Both the position numbers and the translations under genes were made by a program. 64,000 nucleotides of DNA, taken from Sphagnum magellanicum. Its lineage: Eukaryota > Streptophyta > Sphagnopsida > Sphagnales > Sphagnaceae. The notes beneath the pieces are model-generated. The model was not told the origin of the DNA. It made no database searches and worked only from the letters and a program-made list of their open reading frames with translations. Location of the stretch: NCBI GenBank assembly GCA_021904315.1, contig CM038915.1, forward strand, positions 15,562,001 through 15,626,000. Reading direction: 5' to 3'. Below, one piece after another: positions 1-56,999 of this stretch. Within the stretch, counting starts at the first letter, position 1; each line of letters begins with the position of its first letter.

Positions 1-1363
1 CATATATTTAGGAAAAAAAAAAAAATACAAAATTTTATATAAGAATATAATACAAGTATATTACTGGAAATTTGAATTTCTTTCAAATTTAGAAAGAGTT
101 TTCTAAAAAGATCGGGCAAAGTTTTTTTAATCACACTCGGGCTTCACATTGCTATGCACTACTAATGTCCAAGGTTTTTTTTTTCAAATTCCTTAAGTAA
201 GTCAATTAGCAACGATCCTCAACATTAATTAGCAATAAATGGCAATTGTCTTAGGTGAGTTGTAGCATTTTTACAAGAGTGTTGCTACATGTTTTGACCT
301 TACAAATGCCTAGATCTAGATGTGGCTAATTTAATTACATTAAATTTCAAAAAATGATGACAAAATCTCTAAAATCACAAAAAAAAATTTGTGTTTGTAT
401 GTGTCTTTTTTAAAAAAAAATTCCGAAAAAAAATTCTCCAAGTTGCAAAATTTTGTCACACAAAAAATAAATAAATGCTAGTGACAATGAAATGATGAAA
501 AAAATTAAAAATTAAGTTTCATTCGAATGAAAATATTGAATGACATTGCATGCAACTTGAAATGAATTGAAATTCAATCAAAACTCAACTTAAATTGAAT
601 GAAAATTCCAATTAACTGAATTCAATTGGATTCAGGTGCGATTACATTGAATTCAAATTCAATGTAAAAAAGAAACAAGCTACAAATTGTTACATAAAAT
701 ATCAAAAAATTCTAATCATTTTCATCATTTGTGATGGGGGAAAAAAAAAAGTTTTGAAAAAACTCAAATTTGAAAAATGACCCTTTTCCTTTCCATTCCA
801 TTCCATTTAAAGAAAAAATCCAAATCAAAATCTATTTTGGGTTTTAAATGGAATTTATTAACTCCAAAAATTGTCCCCTTATACCAGCTCCAATGTTACC
901 ATTTTGACTAGAGTAATAATAAGAACAAAAATGGTGCCTGGGTTTGTCACCTGTGGTTAGGGGAAAGTTAGTTTGGTGTTGGTTTTTTTACTTTTTACTT
1001 TTTACGTGACTGGGAAGGTAGATAATGGCTACGGGTGGGGGGGGGGGGGGGAGAACAAGCCCGATGCTTTTTAGGGTTGGCTACACAAGGCGCAATCGCG
1101 AGAAGCCACGGTCGCGAGACTTGCGACTTCCGACTCGCGACACAAAATTGCAGATAGGAAAACGTGCCAATTCTTGAGCGTAAAGCTATGGCGATGCGAT
1201 TCGCGACCACCCATCTGCTCATTCTCATGTTTAATGTCGAAATCTTGTGTTGGGTCTTTCGCGGATTTCTGCATTGCGAACCGCAAATTTAGGGTTTGAG
1301 GAACCTTGGACTCCGAGAAAGAAAGAGAAAGTGAGAGAGGAGGAGGAGGAGGAGGAGGAGGAG
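1..1363. other. AT-rich upstream region and 5' leader of the HRD3A-like gene
   Basis: The first 1000 bases are AT-rich with many short A and T runs and no coding signal I can support. A run of 15 G occurs at 1037-1051. A GGA tract (about 1337-1363) abuts the start codon of the next gene. The open frame extends upstream of that start through this tract and would add a run of glutamates, but that extension looks like leader sequence, because a signal peptide begins just after 1364. Confidence 0.5.
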
Positions 1364-4300
1364 ATGATGGGACCAAGTTTGCAGCGAGATTTGCGTGCTG
1401 TGATGCGGTTTATGGTGTTGCTGGTGGTATTTGTGCTATTGCCAGTAGTTTCGGCCACTAAGAATTTTGTGATATTGTTGGAAGATGATGATTCCAGAGA
1501 GCCCGTGGACTCAGTAAGTAACTCTGGTGAGGAGTTGGAAGGCTTGTCGGAGGAGAAGAAGATGGGGCGAATGGGATTCGCTTCTGATGCGGAAGAGCCC
1601 GTCGTAGAGTGGGATGAATTTGGAGATTCAGAGGACAAGACAGACGACGATCTGGATCCGGGTTCTTGGAAGCAGATGCTGGAGAATCCGGAAAGCTCCA
1701 GACAAGGCAGTGAGGTAGATACCTATATTGAGATTTTGGGTCGGACATTTTCGACAGAGTTTTGTTGGACTCCTTCTTGCCTCGAATTCATGTGCAATTT
1801 TGGTTTTGGGGGTTTTTTTTCCTTCGTTTGCTTTTTGTTTGTTTTTTTCCCCCTGATTTTGATAACATACATGTATTGCAGTATGCAGTGGGTGTAAGAA
1901 AGATGTTTGAAGGCATCATCAGTGAGGGAGAGCCAGTGATGCTGCTCAAGGAAGCCATCAGACATCTCCAAGCAGATGCAGATCATGGAAATGCTCATTC
2001 ACAATCCACTCTTGCATTTCTGCTTGCAACTGGTATCGGTGTACAACAGAGTGATTCAAAAGCATTTCTGTACCACCATTTTGCAGCCAAAGGAGGCAAC
2101 TTCCAATCCAAAATGGCTCTTGCATACACATACTCTCGGCAGCAGGTAGATATCAAACTCTCCTTCGAGCTCTCTCTGTCTCTGTCTCTGTCTCCCTCTC
2201 TGGCTCTGTTTCTCTGTCTCTCTCCCTCTGTGTCTCTGTCTCTTGGAGAGACCATCTAATTAGTCCATGAGGATTTTATGAACCTCAAAGGGCTACAAAA
2301 AAATTTGCAAGCGATTTGGAACTGGTTCGTAATCTGGGATTTTCTCTCTGGCAGATGCATGAGGAGGCTGTGAAATTGTACGCAGAACTGGCTGCAACAG
2401 CAGTGGCAAGCTTCATAAGCTCCAAAGATGCTCCTCTTATGGAACCAGTACAACTGAATGTTGGATTCGAAGAGAGCAGAGAAACATTGAAGAAATTCCG
2501 TGGAGAAGATGATGATGATTTTCAGTTCCTGGAGTATCAGGTATATATGGGAGGGATTGTTTTTCATTCTTTTAAACCTACAGTTGGTTTTTGAGCAAAA
2601 ACAATCACCTGCACGATTGATTGGCACTTTTGGCTGTGGCAATTTTTTTTGCTTAAGCCAGGATTCTCTTCATATGTTGCTGGATTGATTCTTCCTCATT
2701 GAAATTTTCAGTCTCTGGTTTTTCAATGCTGAAAACACAGACTGAAGAGGTTTGTAATGACTTTGGGCAGGCTCACAAGGGATATACAGAGGCGATGTAC
2801 CGATTGGGAGTATTTTACTATTTTGGGTTGCGAGGAGTGCATCGTGATCACAGTAAAGCGCTCACCTGGTTACTCAAAGCAGTAGAGAAATCTGATCCAC
2901 GATCAATGGAACTTCTTGGTGAGATTTATGCACGTGGATATGGTGTTGAGCGCAACTACTCGAGGGCATATGAATGGTTTCTGGAAGCTGCTCGTAAGAA
3001 ACACTATTCAGCTTTAAATGGAATTGGGTATCTTTACGTGAAGGGACAAGGTGTGGCAGATGGCAAGAACCATACCATGGTAAAATTATTGACAAATGTT
3101 ACTGAAAATTGTGAGATATGAGGATTCCCACACATTAGTGCAAAGGCATTATGTAGAGCACAGCAGCAGGATGTAGCTGGTGTGTGTACCCACAATCAAC
3201 CGGCAAGACTTTTGTGAAACAGAAAAACAAACAGCTTTCTCTAACCTGCAGTTTGTTCCTTTTCTGTGTTTGGTTGATCAGGCTAAGGAGTACTTTAAGA
3301 GGGCGGCAGAGGCAGGTGATTCACATGGCCATTACAACTTGGGTGTCCTCTACTTGGAAGGGATGGGTGTGAAGAAAGATGTGAAGGAGGCTTGCAAACT
3401 CTTCTTGATAGCAGCTAATAAGGGCCACCCAAAAGCCTTTTACCAGCTTGCCAAGATGCAACAAACAGGGATTCCAGGCATGAAGAAGGATGTAGCGACG
3501 GTAAGTAAGTAACAAAAAAAGGATTGATCTTTTTGTACGAGAATGTGCAATTTTCTTTGCTGGAGAAATTGCTATTCCACATGCGCCGCTGATTTGATTC
3601 CAAATTTTGGATCATTTGTGTAGGCAGCAGCACTCTACAAGATAGTGGCAGAGAGAGGCCCATGGGGTTCATTGATGTGGTGGGCACTAGAATGCTATCT
3701 TAAAGGGCAAATTGGTAAAGCTCTTCTCCTCTACATGCGAGCTGCTGAGCTGGGCTATGAAGCAGCCCAGAGCAATGCAGCCTGGATTCTGGAGAAGTAC
3801 CATAGTGAAGGGATCTGCCTTGGGAAAGCAGGTCTCTGCACAGATGTGGAGCGCCACCAACGTGCACATACCTTGTGGCGCTATGCTGCAGAGCAAGGGA
3901 ACGAGCATGCAGCACTGCTCATTGGGGATGCCTATTTCTATGGGCGGGTGAGTTGCACACCTCTGGAGCAACCTTGCTGTGTTTCCATTATGGATAGATT
4001 TGTCCAGTGGCCGTTCTATCCAAATGTTTTAGCTGCAAAGAAAAATTTGTGATTCAGTTGCAGTTTTCAACTGCCAAATTGTATACAGGGAACTGAGAAA
4101 GATCTTGATCGAGCAGCAGAAGCATACATGAGAACACAATTGCAACAGAATCCACAAGCTATGTTCAATCTGGGCTATATGTATGAACATGGATTAGGTC
4201 TGCCCAAGGACCTTCATCTGGCTAAGCGCCACTATGATCAAGCTCTTGACACTGAACCAGCTGCTGCCTTACCTGTCACTCTTGCTCTTATGGGCCTTTG

Positions 4301-4640
4301 GCTTCGGCAGCATTATGATGATAGCATTGTTGTAAGTTTTCCTGAACATCCATCAAACAAACAGGGATTATGGTTAAGTATTTTTTCATCTACAAGCTGG
4401 TTTTTCAAGTCTCTTACTTCTGACACTAACTCTCCACAAGCTTCTGATTGACTGCAGGTGAAAGCCATGGATTCACTGCCACAGATTATAGTGAGGGTTG
4501 GAGACTCATTTACGGGGTTCTTTATGGATGAGGGAAATGTTACACTCGTCACCCTCTTTGTTTGTTTGCTTACTGTGTTGTATCTACGACAAAGACAAAG
4601 GCGGGTGGTGGCTGTTAACATACAACCACCACCTCAATAA
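1364..4640 (+). CDS. HRD3A: HRD3/SEL1L-type ERAD adaptor (HRD3A, EBS5-like), 8 exons
   Basis: Exons 1364-1714, 1882-2145, 2355-2540, 2771-3079, 3282-3500, 3624-3947, 4089-4331 and 4458-4640 join into 692 residues; every intron is GT-AG and phase 0. Residues 1-31 form a signal peptide (hydrophobic [14 protein letters not shown]). Residues 32-117 are acidic. About 130-640 are Sel1-type TPR repeats with motifs such as [25 protein letters not shown] and [11 protein letters not shown]. Residues 659-675 form a transmembrane helix, followed by a short basic tail (RQRQRR). HRD3/SEL1L proteins are ER-membrane partners of the HRD1 ubiquitin ligase and select misfolded luminal glycoproteins for degradation; Arabidopsis HRD3A/EBS5 has about the same length and the same ending. 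The start at 1364 is followed at once by a second ATG (1367); either gives the signal peptide. The gene looks intact. The family call is secure; A versus B paralogue is not testable here. Confidence 0.95.
2165..2240. repeat. CT-rich microsatellite in HRD3A intron 2
   Basis: A run of degenerate CTCTGT and CTCTCC units fills the first half of intron 2 (2146-2354). It is intronic polypyrimidine sequence well upstream of the acceptor. Confidence 0.8.
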
Positions 4641-5886
4641 CCCCCCTTGTGTCTCTCTCTGCTCTGCTGTAATAGGTTTTGATACTGGATAAGGTTGAGG
4701 CAGTGATTTTTGTCTCTGTGCTCTGTCTCCATTTGTACCAGTAAGATCCACTGACAAGATCTGAAGTTGGAGAAAAGACACAAGACATCAATGTCACATG
4801 CACGACAGCATAGGTAATCTTGTCACATGCTCACTTCTGCAACCTGAGACCGCAATTTGGTCTTAGGGAATCTGCTATTTCCACCCCCATTAAAAGTGAT
4901 CACAATGATATACCCATGAGCTTTCATGCAAGCTATTCAACATGGAGCTGGAGATTATTGTCTCCTATACAAAATGGAGGTACCTCAAGATACATAGAAG
5001 TGGGTGCTACATGGGTCCGATTTTTATCGATACCTCAACAGATTTGTGCTTCTTGGCTGGCTCCAGGAGATTCTGGAAGCAGCAATGAAGTTAACCCAGA
5101 GCTTGGAAAACAGGGAAGATCAGGATGCTGCTGACCTCAAGGCTCATGCCTTGACAAGGAGATATTCCTGGAGTTGCTTCTTGTCTTGCTCTTAGGTGCA
5201 AAGGACTCAAACATCCTCCTCTTAATCTGAGTTTGCTTGAGAAATGGAGATGTATTTGCAAAGCAGACCACCCAATGTATTGAGATTGTGCAGAGTAATC
5301 AATCCTCTTGAGATTGTTTGTCATTTATACCCAATTCCATCCTGTTCTGCTGCACCTCTCAGGTGTCTTGAATCATCTTCATCAGCATCTGGGGATCAGA
5401 GTCTTGGGTGCATCAAATCCTCCATAATCTCCAAGCAGTGTGTGCGATTGTACTCCACAGTAACCTCCATCACTGTCAAGCATTTTTCTAGTCCCAACAG
5501 AGAGCTTGTGCCTGGTTTATATATCCTGTTTTCAAAAATGGCAATCTCAGCAAAAAGACACTCCTTTTCTTGAAAAGAGCATGACACAACCTGTGTTCAT
5601 TACTGCTCATGTTTGCAACTCTTCTTCCCATTTCTTGAATCTTGAGACAGAAAGAAGAACAAGCAGACTGCCTTACTGTGATGCAAAGATCTACTCCTTA
5701 CTTAAAAGCTTCTCCACATTATTAGATGCCAGGAAGCGTACTGCAATGATGTATTGTTTTACAAGAGACGATCTTCCTTGGATCGATCTCCAACATAGTT
5801 TCTGCATGAAATTATTTCTGAACCCTGTCGTCATCCATCGGAGAATCTGTGAAAGACCATGCAAGCAAGAAGAGAGCAAGGGAGAG

Positions 5887-5917
<31 letters not shown>

Positions 5918-6612
5918 TGTTCGTTTGCCTGCGGTTGGAGATGATGCCAGATCATGCATGCGTCATCGAGAGAAGATTCTTTGCTAACGGCTCGTTGCTG
6001 AAATGCCGTCGCAGCAGCAGCAGTCGTGGATGCTTTGCGCGTCTGAGCATGCATAGAGTTTTCTCCACAGAGCTCTCCATCGCACTGACGGATGCTGACG
6101 ATTTCTTCAAATGCATACAAGCAGCAGTCTCGTGGGAGATCGATCGATCGATCGACCGAGAGAGAGAGAGAGAGCTCTTTCTTGGAAAGACTGTACAGCT
6201 TCTAGAACACGTATCGAGGCCACCTGTTGTCTTCTCGCGGCTTCTTGAATACGTATGCAGAAAAAATCTTTGGTCGGCTTCTTGCAGCTTCCTTCGGTCA
6301 CTACTGTTCAAAATGCTGCAAGAATCCGCAGCTCTGCAAGAATCTGGGAACTTGGAAGTTGATCGGAAGCTCCCATCGACTTTGCAAACTCAGCATGAAC
6401 TCCGCGCTTGCACGCTGGCTGGCTCCGTTGCGAAGAACAAAGTCCAAGCAGAAGCTAGAAAGAAGAAGCAGAAGAAGGAAGAAGAAGAAGAATCAGAAGA
6501 AGCAGAAGCAAGAAGAAGAAGAAGAGGAGGAGTATCTTCTTCGCAGAAACAAAGGTGGATTCACAACGTCTTCGCCGTCATTCTTGACCAAAATTGTCGA
6601 TCAGAATGCCTA
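4641..6612. other. Spacer: HRD3A 3' region and GA-rich upstream region of the phosphorylase
   Basis: No conserved protein is recognisable. The first part is probably the HRD3A 3' UTR. An AG microsatellite lies at about 5894-5917 and a second GA run at about 6160-6174. TCGA repeats (6140-6157) and an AAGAAG-rich purine tract (6458-6540) follow. A 232-codon open frame at 5917-6615 owes its length to these simple repeats (ER, KKK, EEE and RRR runs), and I do not call it a gene. Part of this stretch may be transcribed leader of the next gene. Confidence 0.5.
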
Positions 6613-6993
6613 TAGAAGAAATCGGATACCAGAAGAACAATTGAGCGTAGAAGAAGCAGCAATCGATCGATCGAGATCGCAATTCCTGTAGAAGAAATCG
6701 GATACCAGACGAACAAGTGCACATACAAGAAGCAAGCAAGCAAGCAATCGAGATCGCAATTCCTATAGAAGAAATCGCATACCAGAAGAACAATGGCGTA
6801 TAGAAGAAGCGGCAAGCAATCGATCGAGATGGCGATTCCTAAAGAAGAAATCGCATACCAGAAGAACAATTACGCGTAGAAGAAGCGGCAAGCAATCGAT
6901 CGAGATCGCAATTCCAATAGAAGAAATCGGATACCAGAAGAACAAGTGCCGCATAGAAGAATCAAGCAAGCAATCGATCAAGATCGAGAGAGA
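6613..6993. repeat. 76-bp minisatellite, five units, just upstream of the phosphorylase start
   Basis: The phrase TAGAAGAAATCGGATACCAG recurs at 6613, 6689, 6766, 6842 (changed to AAGAAG) and 6918, a period of 76-77 bp. Units also carry AGAAGAACAA and a CAATCGATCGAGATCGCAATTCC block. The last unit runs into a GA microsatellite (about 6986-7003) ending about 30 bp before the ATG at 7036. The period is not a multiple of three, so the open frames across it are by-products. It probably lies in the promoter or 5' leader. Confidence 0.9.
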
Positions 6994-7035: not shown

Positions 7036-7578
7036 ATGGCGGAGTTGAGGAAAGATCCGTTGGTGCAAAGGTGGGTGATCATCTCAGACAAGAGAGGGAA
7101 AAGGCCATCGGACTTCAAGGCCGCGAAGAGCACAGAGGATGTAAGACCAGGGCCGTGTGCATTCTGCCCAGGCTACGAGGAAGGAACAGGTCCAGAGACT
7201 TTTGCTATGCGAGATGGCGGAGAAGCAAATGCTTCAGACTGGCGAGTGCGCGTCATTGTGAACAAGTTTCCAGCCGTCGCACCAGACTTCCCTTGTGCTG
7301 ATTCCGCTGTTGGAGAAGGAACCGTGTTCGGAGAGTGTCGTCTTCCTGGGTTCGGCTCCCATGAGGTTGTGATCGAGACCCCCGACCACGACACTCCCTT
7401 TGTCGATCTGCCAGTCCCTCATATATGCGATGTAAGAAAGCTTTCTCTTCTTCTTCTTCAATAGATCACAATTGCAACAAAAATAAAATCTGCACATGCG
7501 TTGTTGCAATTCGCCTCCTGATGTCTGGATCCGTGTACATCTCTTTTCTCTCTCAGATCTGTGGAAGGATGAGGAAAA

Positions 7579-7619
<41 letters not shown>

Positions 7620-9634
7620 ACAGGTGTGTTGAAGACGGCATTCCTGTATCAAGTGGGCATGCATCAAGAAATCTAATAAGAAAAGGATACATGAATCAAG
7701 TTTGTTGTTTAGCTCTTATTGATCTTCTTGTTTCCTTTCTCCTCAATGATGTTGAAGAATTCTTTCTCTGTTGCAGATGTGCTGAAGAAGGCATACATTC
7801 CTATATGTATCAAGAAATTCTTTAAGAAGGGATGCACAAATGCACAACGTATCAAGTTTGTTGTTTTCTCTTCTTGATCTTCTTCCTTTCTCTGGCTTGA
7901 TGTTATAAGGAACTCTCTTTCCTTCTGTGTTGCAGGTGCTCAAGGCATATCAAGTGCGCATGAAATCTTTCAGAAAGGATGCACGCTTCAAGTACTGCCA
8001 GGTGATGATTTCAGACATCTCTTTTTCAAGTCTCTTCTTCTGAACTCACCCACTCACAGTGTGTGTGTGTGCACATCCTCTCTCCTCTTGCATCCTCTTG
8101 CTGATTTTTTTGGCTTTGTGTGTGTGTGTGTATGATGGCAGGTGTTTAAGAACAGGGGCAATAGGGCAGGAGCATCAATGACACATTCACATAGCCAGGT
8201 CCTTGCATTGCCCATTGCCACCCACAATATAGAGGATGAACTGCGGGGTGCAAAAGAGTACTACGACACACATGGACGCTGCATTTTCTGTGATGTTGTG
8301 GCACATGAATCTGCCATCAAGACCCGACTCATTGATGAGAACGAGCATTTTGTAACTGCGGCTCCATATGCACCACGGTTTCCATATGAGACTTGGTTGG
8401 TCCCAAAACGACATTCTTCCAATTATGAAACAGTTGGTGATGATGAGGTGAGCTCTCCACAAAATATGTCTGCCTCAGGACACTCTCTGCTCCTACTTGG
8501 TGATGGCTCAAAGATATGCATCAACATGTTTGCTTTGTTTTGTGTCTTTTTGTTTCATGGCTTAGGCTTAGATGCTTGCTTGTGCACAGGGACAAGCTAA
8601 AATGAAATGGAGCTTACCCTCCTCACAAGCTTGTTTTTGCAGCTTGTAAGAGGATACTATGAAAACTTTTTCTGATTACCTATGTCTCTTGAGTGCTGTT
8701 GCTAACATCATGATTGAGTCTTCCTGTTGCTTCCAAAAATGCAAGAGGAACTCATGATGCAGATTTAGCCAACATCATGACTGGGTCTTCCTGTCACTTC
8801 CAGAAATACAACAGAAACTCAGAACACGGATTTTGTAGAATGGTTTCCTCAGATCTTTGGGTAGATAATTCTTTGTATACTTATCTACACCTGCTGCCAT
8901 CATGATCTGATGAAGTCAATGGGTAGTCATGGCAGTTTGACACTGCTATTGGGCAACTAGTTGTGTATATGTATCTACACCCACTGCTGTCAGGATCTAA
9001 TGAAGTCGGTAGGTAGTCATGGCAGCTCTTCACTGCCATTCATGATGAAGGTGATGGTCTGACACTTTCTGAGCAACTCCCATAAGATTATGACCACACT
9101 CATTGTCATGTTACCTTCAAAATCTTCATTGTGGAGATTTCTTTGCAATCTCATAGATGTAGAAAGGTTGGCTATGATGGGGAGCATGTACCATGACTCC
9201 CCAGTAGTGATTTGTACCCATGACAACTTGGAAAGGTTTGCCATGAATCCTAGTCCCTTAAGCTCTTTTACACTTGATGCTTTTTGCTGCAACCAATCCT
9301 TGGGTCACAAGTTGATTTAGAGTACCGAATAATTCTGTATCTCACCTGGGTGGAGTGTAATCTCAACTGTGTGCAGCTACAAAGTTTGGCAGCGCTATTG
9401 AAGTTTATGTTGCAGAAGATGGACGTTGCATTTTCTCAACCACCTTACAATTTCATGATTCAGACTGCTCCTCTTGATCCTGACAATTGGGATCTACCAT
9501 ATTATCACTGGTATGTTCGACTTGTGCCCCAGCTTATTACTCTTGGTGGATTTGAACTTGGTAGTGGCTGCCACATAAATGCCGTTGCACCTGAGAAAGC
9601 AGCCGAATTCCTTCGAAATGTCAAAATCAACTAG
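7036..9634 (+). CDS. ADP-glucose phosphorylase, GalT/HIT family, 4 exons
   Basis: Exons 7036-7431, 7936-8001, 8142-8447 and 9377-9634 join in phase 0 into 341 residues, close to the Arabidopsis At5g18200 enzyme. Members of this branch are galactose-1-phosphate uridylyltransferase-like proteins; the plant one has ADP-glucose phosphorylase activity, passing AMP between ADP-glucose and phosphate through an AMP-histidine intermediate. Visible here: zinc cysteines Cys41 and Cys44 (CAFCPGYE), His118 in TPDHD (third ligand position), and THSHSQ with His169 (zinc) and nucleophile His171. A second CxxC (GRCIFCDVV) and the C-terminal HIT-like half (HWYVRLVPQL, GFELGSGCHINAV) follow. No plastid transit peptide is obvious. 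A UDP-sugar role cannot be excluded from sequence, but the motif context favours the ADP-glucose enzyme. Introns 1 and 3 contain duplicated sequence (see separate entries). Confidence 0.92.
7580..7616. repeat. CT microsatellite in phosphorylase intron 1
   Basis: A run of about 16 CT units lies just upstream of the first ghost acceptor. It resembles a polypyrimidine tract expanded by slippage. Confidence 0.85.
7622..7935 (+). pseudogene. Two decayed tandem copies of phosphorylase exon 2 within intron 1
   Basis: Real exon 2 starts at 7936 after a TGTTGCAG acceptor. Similar sequence follows two earlier acceptor-like sites: CTTACAG ending at 7623 and CTGTTGCAG ending at 7776. Each is followed, two bases later, by a frame beginning Val-Leu-Lys as in the exon; copy 1 then has a Gln-Val-x-Met stretch and copy 2 a KKFFKKGC stretch. 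The following intron flanks also match (TCAAGTTTGTTGTTT after both ghosts; a TTGATCTTCTT block in both). Spacing is 153 and 159 bp. Copy 1 runs into a stop, and the two-base offset would break the frame in both, so they look dead. Confidence 0.75.
8698..9025. repeat. Two short tandem duplications in phosphorylase intron 3
   Basis: Intron 3 (8448-9376, 929 bp) carries two diverged tandem pairs. The first is a block at about 8701-8760 (AACATCATGATTGAGTCTTC) repeated at about 8770-8830 (AACATCATGACTGGGTCTTC). The second is a block at about 8881-8935 ending GGTAGTCATGGCAG, repeated at about 8971-9025 with the same ending. No coding content is visible. Confidence 0.75.
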
Positions 9635-37659: not shown

Positions 37660-38610
37660 GCAGATTCAAACATGAAAGTTGCCACCAAAAAAAATTGGTA
37701 TGGTGGAATTTCATAATGTTTTTTATTTGGTAATTGATAATGCTTGGGTTTTGGTGACGAATTTAGAAGTGAAAGTTGCCACAAAAAAAAAATGGTGTTA
37801 GAAGTTCACAATGTTTTCGATGTGGCAATCGACATTGGTTAAGTTTCTGGTGACAAATTCAGAAATGAAAATTGCCACAAAAAACAAATTAGTATGTTGG
37901 ACTTTCATAATGAACTTTTGATGTGGTAATTGATAGTGCTTGGGTTTTTTGTGATGGACTCAAAAGTGAAAGTTGCCATAAAAAACAAAATTTGGTATGT
38001 TGGAAGTTCATAATGTTTTTAATGTGGTAATTTGTAATGCTAGGGTTTCTAGTGATAGATTTAGAAGTGAAAGTTGCCACAAAAACAAATTGGTATGTTG
38101 GAAATTAATAATGTTTTTAATGTGGCAATGGAAAGTGCTTGGGTTTCTGGTGACAGATTCAAAAGTGAAAGTTTCCACAAAAAACAAATTGGTATGTTTG
38201 GAATTTCATAAAGATCTTCTAATTTGGTAATTGAAAGTGCTTGGGTTTTTGGTGACAAATTCCTAAGTGAAAAGTTGCCACAAAAAACAAAATTTGGTAT
38301 GTTGGAAGTTCATAATGTTTCTAATGTGGTAATCTACAATGCTTGGGTTTCTGATGATAGATGTAGAAATGAAAATTGCCACAAAAAGCAAACTTTGGTA
38401 TGTTGGAAGTTCAAAATGTTCCTAATTTGGTAATTGACAATGCTTGGGTTTCTTGTGAAAAATGTAGAAGTGAAAGTTGCCACAAAAATGAAATAAATGT
38501 TTGGATTAATTTCAAATTAAGTTTACTCCTTATCTTATATCTGATAAATGCATGAGTTTCTAATGACAAATGCAGAAGTCAAAGTTGCCACCAAAAATAA
38601 AGTTAGTTTG
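37660..38610. repeat. About 100-bp satellite array, ten anchors
   Basis: The anchor GAAAGTTGCCAC, or a one-base variant, recurs at 37674, 37771, 37867, 37968, 38069, 38167, 38269, 38371, 38472 and 38580 (periods 96-108). Each unit also has TTGGTATGTTGGAAGTTCAT, AATGTGGTAATTGACAATGC and TTGGGTTTCTGGTGACA. It starts about 550 bp after the last transposase domain. Confidence 0.93.
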
Positions 38611-55568: not shown

Positions 55569-56999
55569 TCATCATTATTACTAGCGTACTTCACCCTATT
55601 ATTATTGTGCACATATAACAACACGTTTTTTAATATAATTCAATTCTCATGATATAAAAAATTTATTTCTTGCTACCTGAAATTTGGCATATTGCACCTA
55701 TCCATGTTGGCCAGGAAACCCAGTTTCCAGGATGTGCCAAAAATGTGATTCAAACATGAAAATAACCAATTTTCACCATGTGCTGATTAAATATGATTCC
55801 TATATGAAAATAAGTACCCAATTTTCAAGATGTGCGACTATGATCCCCCAGTATGTGGAAACTTGTGCTCTAGAACTAATTGATATGATTTTAGTTCACC
55901 ATTTTCCATTTACCCCATGATTGTAGTGTGCACTCTTCCCTCCACACCTCATGGCACAGAAAAATCACTATTACTGCAAACACTTTTAAGTCCCTACCAT
56001 TGCACCACATTTAGGTGCTCAACATTACTATTTCTCATTCATTTACCAGAACTCCCAAGTGACTACTTAGTGATTTTGTTTTCAAGAGGTAGTCTTTGCA
56101 TGACAAACAATGTGTCACAAACAGGCTGCCACTGGCAATAGATAAGATGTTGTACATGGGCATATATATATATATATTTATTTATTTAATTGTGTGATTT
56201 ATTTGCATGTGTTTATGTGTATGTGCATATATATGTTTATAAATGTGTAATAACTCCTGACCTTATTTGAGTGACATATCATAAATACGTCACTCAGCCC
56301 AAGGCAGCCTGGCACAGATTCCTACACATGGGCAGGCGCATTAGAAATCTGCACCTTCGAAACATGCCAGGTTTCAGGATCATGTTTCAAATCCCCCCTT
56401 ACAAATTGTGTTGCACCTTCATACCTCTCTAACTTTATGCCTTTTGGTTTACATCCTGAACAATGTAACCTAGTCCTTCAAACTCGATGTTCAAAACAGC
56501 AAACTTAAAGTCCCAAAACTTAAAGTCTCGAAACTTGACGTCAAATTGTGAGGTTCGACCCTAAGCCCCAAACATGAGCCCAAAACTTCACCCCTGAAAG
56601 TAGTCTTGGAACTCAAAACCTAAACCCAATAAGCCAAGACCTCCCAATATGTGAAGGCATCAAAAGACCAAAAAAGACAAAACTTGCAAGAACTCGAAAC
56701 ATCAGCAAAACATAGCTTAAATGAAGGGTTTAACATTGTCATAATTGAAATATTCAAGTTTCAAAAAATGTGTATCAAATGCACGATGAGTCAAACATTA
56801 GTAACATATCATTTGAATAGTCTAATTTGGAAAGAATATTAAATCTAAATTTGTAATAAATAAAAAAATAGCTTGAATAATAATATAGATTGGGGATGAC
56901 CATATATGGTTTATTTAATATGGCTAGTACACCCCAGAATTTATAACATTGGTAAAAGGCCTAAAATTCAAAAATTCACAATCTATTTCCGCCTACTTT
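55569..56999. other. 3' region of the polyketide synthase and intergenic DNA
   Basis: The 3' UTR probably covers the first 100-200 bases. A short TA run lies at about 56164-56178. Duplicated phrases CCAATTTTCA..ATGTGC occur at 55767 and 55809, and GAAACATG-type words at 56340-56390. No gene. Confidence 0.45.

Follow-up and report, generated by a model that had tools for sequence, protein, structure and literature searches.

The window analysed here, a 64-kb stretch of Sphagnum magellanicum DNA at 15562001-15626000 of contig C9, contains on its forward strand a gene of four exons. Exon 1 (7036..7431) has 132 codons and ends in phase 0, exon 2 (7936..8001) has 22 codons (VLKAYQVRMKSFRKDARFKYCQ), exon 3 lies at 8142..8447 and exon 4, which includes the stop codon, at 9377..9634. 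The joined coding sequence is open over 341 aa, every junction falls in phase 0 and the introns are of the GT-AG type, including the 504-nt intron 1 (7432..7935) in which the features discussed below are found. Exons 1-3 match the PDB entry 1z84 (E 2.6e-57), which we take to be Arabidopsis At5g18200, and exon 2 aligns to it without gaps. ADP-glucose phosphorylase is presumably the name of this Arabidopsis relative. As judged from GalT models scoring above their curated cut-offs, the gene is a member of the GalT-like family: PF01087 gives 56.9 bits for exons 1-3 (cut-off 22.1) and TIGR00209 gives 137.2 for the full protein (cut-off 102.1). PF02744 (25.9 for exons 1-3) and NF008724 (146.6 for the full protein) stay under their cut-offs of 29.2 and 448, respectively. 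A 76-bp unit is present in about 5 tandem copies at 6605-6986, an array that ends 50 bp 5′ of the GalT-like start codon and is possibly part of the 5′ UTR or promoter. A chalcone synthase gene is also present within the window; two PDB entries tie as its best match, and one of them, 6dx7, is presumably the enzyme of the moss Physcomitrium.

The GalT-like gene adjoins a Sel1-repeat gene (1156-4659). A syntenic paralogue was found on contig C7, adjoined by a copy of the Sel1-repeat gene in the same order, the two genes forming a duplicated block. The GalT-like paralogues are identical at 275 of 340 aligned residues, with a dS of 0.61. The position and phase of intron 1 are the same in both, and their second exons are identical at 57 of 66 nt. 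Exon 2 of the gene in the window has an intact frame and is conserved in sequence with respect to both 1z84 and the paralogue.

Intron 1 contains two decayed copies of the beginning of exon 2, here called ghosts, all parts of which lie on the forward strand. Acceptor-like AG dinucleotides end at 7623 and 7776, followed by the real one at 7935; the spacings of 153 and 159 bp given in a preliminary description of this DNA agree with these positions. Ghost 1 starts with a pyrimidine tract, (CT)18, and an acceptor-like site (7583..7623, TTTCTTACAG/GTGTGT, the slash marking the end of the AG), followed at 7624..7700 by decayed sequence copied from the 5′-most ~57 nt of exon 2. The acceptor-like site of ghost 2 (7763..7776, CTGTTGCAG/ATGTG) is likewise followed by a decayed copy of these ~57 nt (7777..7856). 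Two spacers resembling each other, D1 (7701..7762) and D2 (7857..7921), lie downstream of ghosts 1 and 2, respectively. Upstream of ghost 1, at 7547-7568, the sequence CTCTCAG/ATCTGTGGAAG, with an AG ending at 7556, resembles the acceptor starts of the ghosts (15/21 and 15/22 matches) and may be what is left of a fourth copy.

The match of the ghosts to exon 2 ends at about 7992-7993, corresponding to ~57 of its 66 nt. The last 8-9 nt of exon 2 and its donor were sought after each ghost and not found (p 0.54-0.93). On sequence grounds, each copy is thus made of an acceptor and ~57 of 66 nt of exon 2 and is donorless; being partial, the copies represent duplicated acceptors and not whole exons. 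Both ghosts contain stops and frame breaks. They significantly resemble an adjacent exon of their own gene and carry frameshifts and premature stops, as expected of pseudogenic exons, and they have neither the acceptor plus donor nor the phase-0 open frame that define full tandem or mutually exclusive exons. A full tandem exon duplication with donor was therefore rejected, the exon tail and donor being missing after the ghosts and the best downstream GTs matching the donor consensus at 5 of 8 positions, compared to 6-7 for the three real donors of the gene.

The similarity between these units was evaluated with dinucleotide shuffles (1000 per pair). As whole units, ghosts 1 and 2 score 67 when compared to each other, a value reached by 0/1000 shuffles (maximum 34), ghost 2 and exon 2 score 37 (0/1000) and ghost 1 and exon 2 score 30 (1/1000). 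Once the acceptor and pyrimidine tract are removed, the corresponding scores are 62 (0/1000), 32 (0/1000) and 30 (2/1000). The similarity therefore exceeds the pyrimidine tracts, and a chance likeness confined to such tracts, which the preliminary description had named as the outcome that would overturn its reading, was rejected. Self-comparison of the region produces diagonals at offsets of 146-159 and 292-312, running over both exon-like and spacer sequence. In one of three MAFFT settings the ghost starts are aligned to exon 2 differently. Drawing on 264 kb of C9 and 39 kb of C7, we also surveyed 28 coding blocks from two gene pairs (14 on C9, 14 on C7) for similar sequences within 600 nt on both sides, using 300 background draws; 14 of 18 merged blocks were used, and four at C9 15504347-15522392, outside those genes, were excluded. 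The upstream side of exon 2 alone beats 300/300 draws. The next lowest p values (0.017, 0.033 and 0.037) are at chance level for 56 tests.

The spacers help to delimit the duplicated unit. D1 and D2 resemble each other with a score of 65, reached by 0/2000 shuffles. Their comparison with the 3′ flank of exon 2, at the start of intron 2, gives p values of 0.53 and 0.33, and that with a longer stretch of intron 2 gives 0.95 for D1 and 0.025 for D2. The similar intron flank reported in the preliminary description is thus common to both ghosts, but it is not clearly the 3′ flank of exon 2 itself. D1 shows likeness to intron 1 of the paralogue (score 44, p 0.001; p 0.002 against its 3′ part alone, among 32 comparisons made), at positions 477-527 of this 586-nt intron, upstream of the acceptor. 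Among the same 32 comparisons, intron 2 and the paralogue intron 2 likewise give p 0.001. No likeness was found between D2 and the paralogue intron 1 (p 0.38). At its positions 224-369, the paralogue intron 1 can be aligned with the 5′ part of the present intron 1 (p 0.018), the order being the same in both. This moderate evidence suggests that the repeated flank is probably a spacer derived from the 3′ tail of intron 1. Given the extents of the ghosts, the sequence shared by D1 and D2 and the likeness of D1 to the tail of the paralogue intron 1, the duplicated unit most likely consisted of the intron-1 tail, the acceptor and most of exon 2. An equivalent spacer, D0, was sought upstream of ghost 1 and none was clearly recognisable: pieces of intron 1 compared to D1 or D2 give p values of 0.025-0.26, including 0.0505 and 0.0645 for 7530-7590, 0.10 and 0.059 for 7434-7582, and 0.025 for D2 against 7434-7530. 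The (CT)18 tract may have replaced a spacer at this place.

Ghosts were also sought in intron 1 of the C7 paralogue and are absent there (exon-2 scores of 22 and 25, against 47 here; p 0.313). Since this paralogue has exon 2 but no ghosts, they either arose later in the copy studied here or were lost on C7. Both ghosts score higher against their own exon 2 than against that of the paralogue in 4/4 scoring schemes. Nine sites at which the two second exons differ were used to polarise the ghosts. With the main scheme, ghost 1 shows 6 exon-like and 1 paralogue-like positions when aligned to exon 2, and 4 of each when aligned to the paralogue; the corresponding counts for ghost 2 are 4:1 and 2:3. 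These counts depend on the alignment, and we rejected them as proof of an origin of the ghosts after the paralogues had split. The distance between ghosts and exon 2 is 0.14-0.22, compared to a dS of 0.61 for the paralogues, and is no clean clock because exon 2 is constrained. The JC divergence between the two ghosts ranges from 0.08 to 0.42, varying with the gap cost. In view of the paralogue comparison, the duplication most likely took place after the split, loss on C7 being the alternative.

Altogether, intron 1 very probably carries two neutral pseudogenic partial exons that originated from short tandem duplications. The preliminary description had proposed that exon 2 was once duplicated in tandem within this intron and that the copies are fossils; this is the best reading of the shuffles, the window scan (see below), the survey and the paralogue without ghosts, with the correction that the copies are partial. 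Two rounds of short tandem duplication would have multiplied a unit of about 155 bp, made up of the intron-1 tail, the acceptor and ~57 nt from the start of exon 2, possibly by unequal exchange or replication slippage. Most alignments show, in both ghosts, an offset of 2 nt following the AG and additional bases before GGCAT, which are absent from exon 2 and from the paralogue. Because of these common features, the simplest history would be one in which the upstream product of a single duplication decayed early and was then itself duplicated in that state. As the exon end and donor were left uncopied, the ghosts cannot be normal cassette exons, and an exon-donor pair exists only in the last copy. 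The ghosts would now be decaying as intron sequence.

Other short tandem duplications occur in these genes. Intron 3 of the GalT-like gene contains two, of 67 and 90 bp, 79% alike (8701-8833 and 8874-9040), and intron 3 of the paralogue contains one, with copies 69 bp apart (74%). The ghosts thus look like ordinary lengthening of an intron that by chance took in an acceptor. Elsewhere in the window, a higher-order tandem array with units of 101, 302 and 403 bp is located at 37666-38488.

A YAG acceptor and the pyrimidine tract before it are retained in both ghosts. The fraction of pyrimidines is 1.00 for ghost 1 and 0.67 for ghost 2, compared to 0.81 at the real exon 2 acceptor, and ranges from 0.38 to 0.48 at five other acceptors of the GalT-like gene and its paralogue. 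By these features the ghost acceptors look usable. Since no good donor lies behind the ghosts, the simplest outcome of using their acceptors would be a longer exon 2 of 378 or 225 nt, each a multiple of three. As previously described, the Val-Leu-Lys frame of both ghosts starts 2 nt past the AG (the +2 frame); however, the frame shift expected from their inclusion would not follow, the problem being instead a TGA. With either extension, exon 1 is followed in phase 0 by two codons and then by TGA as the third. Unproductive transcripts would thus stem from this immediate stop and not from the length included. Occasional use of a ghost acceptor would lead to a transcript that is destroyed or non-functional.

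These properties raise the possibility that the ghosts are poison 3′ splice sites, retained so that the early TGA, third codon from both of them, would degrade some transcripts and tune the expression of this paralogue. We consider this improbable. The YAG and pyrimidine tracts of both ghosts speak in its favour, but survival of the AGs by chance is plausible at the divergence observed, and the paralogue does without ghosts. More generally, it is improbable that the ghost 1 and ghost 2 acceptors are in use at all as a paralogue-specific switch, be it by diverting transcripts to the immediate TGA or by ghost 1 acting as a recursive splicing point. A regulatory use of the ghosts would be unlikely.

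It is very unlikely that the ghosts are no exon copies at all and belong to an unrelated intronic tandem or dispersed repeat resembling exon 2 by chance. The score between ghosts (67) is indeed far above those between ghosts and exon (30 and 37), and the array ranks only tenth among the local tandem signals in a self-similarity scan of the window. We scanned the 64 kb on both strands in 3192 overlapping 160-nt windows. With exon 2 as query, the two ghosts come out on top (47 and 41, next 35), in agreement with the exon-2-like sequence that the preliminary description placed after each acceptor. With ghost 1 as query, exon 2 (52) and ghost 2 (51) come first (next 38). Ghost 2 as query retrieves ghost 1 (51) and then exon 2 (42); an unrelated place near 55761 reaches the same score (42), so that ghost 2 matches exon 2 no better than this one place. 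Against a chance resemblance, each ghost lies in register with exon 2 after its AG, and exon 2 has no better matches in 64 kb than these two. Furthermore, a search of the genome (438,994,042 bases, 31 contigs) with 7610-8000, skipping simple repeats and very common words, returned this locus and the paralogue exon 2 only.

The hypothesis that ghost 1 is a recursive splice site, by which intron 1 would be removed in two steps via a zero-length exon to give a normal mRNA, is extremely improbable: the strong pyrimidine tract and an AG directly before donor-like sequence (CAG/GTGTGT, 7/8 of the donor consensus, window 7614-7630) are found in ghost 1 alone, ghost 2 having no donor context (AG/AT), but intron 1 is a mere 504 nt long and an AG/GT context is also expected from copying the real acceptor, GCAG/GTGCTC.

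As neutral partial exons, the ghosts leave known biology unchanged. As genome fossils they are clear but of an ordinary kind, with a mild twist in that the pieces are donorless and combine acceptor and exon sequence. The locus preserves a clean natural example of introns growing longer, and acceptors more numerous, through short tandem duplication while the gene stays unbroken, with the syntenic paralogue without copies as a built-in control. It would also be a neat test case for why two acceptor-like sites upstream of the real one escape the spliceosome, if they do escape it; were they in use, a chance partial-exon duplication would have become a switch in one of two paralogues. Literature searched by gene family and genus does not name this locus in titles or abstract openings.

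Several known systems resemble the situation described here. Pseudogenic exons, as outlined by Morais and Harrison (2009, PMC2718932), have been reported in 0.4-1.0% of genes in four mammals; like the ghosts, these are copies of exons that lie close to the gene of origin and have been inactivated by stops and frameshifts. In contrast to that mammalian outline, the present case concerns a plant gene and a tandem array of two partial copies without exon end and donor. The duplications covered by PMC9013439 ('Tandem Exon Duplications Expanding the Alternative Splicing Repertoire') likewise place copies of exons within introns, where they are detected by matching each exon against the entire gene; that work treats them as sources of alternative exons in animals, whereas the copies described here are disabled. 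The tool presented in PMC12343006 names partial and intronic exon duplications and degenerate exons as classes, and genes with partial, intronic or degenerate classes are stated there to outnumber those with full-exon duplications; the ghosts would fall into its class of partial, intronic exon duplications. Finally, the Drosophila intron gain sketched in PMC2891723 also involves a tandem duplication that includes a splice motif, with one copy being intronised. In Drosophila this creates new introns, whereas in the Sphagnum gene an existing intron was lengthened.
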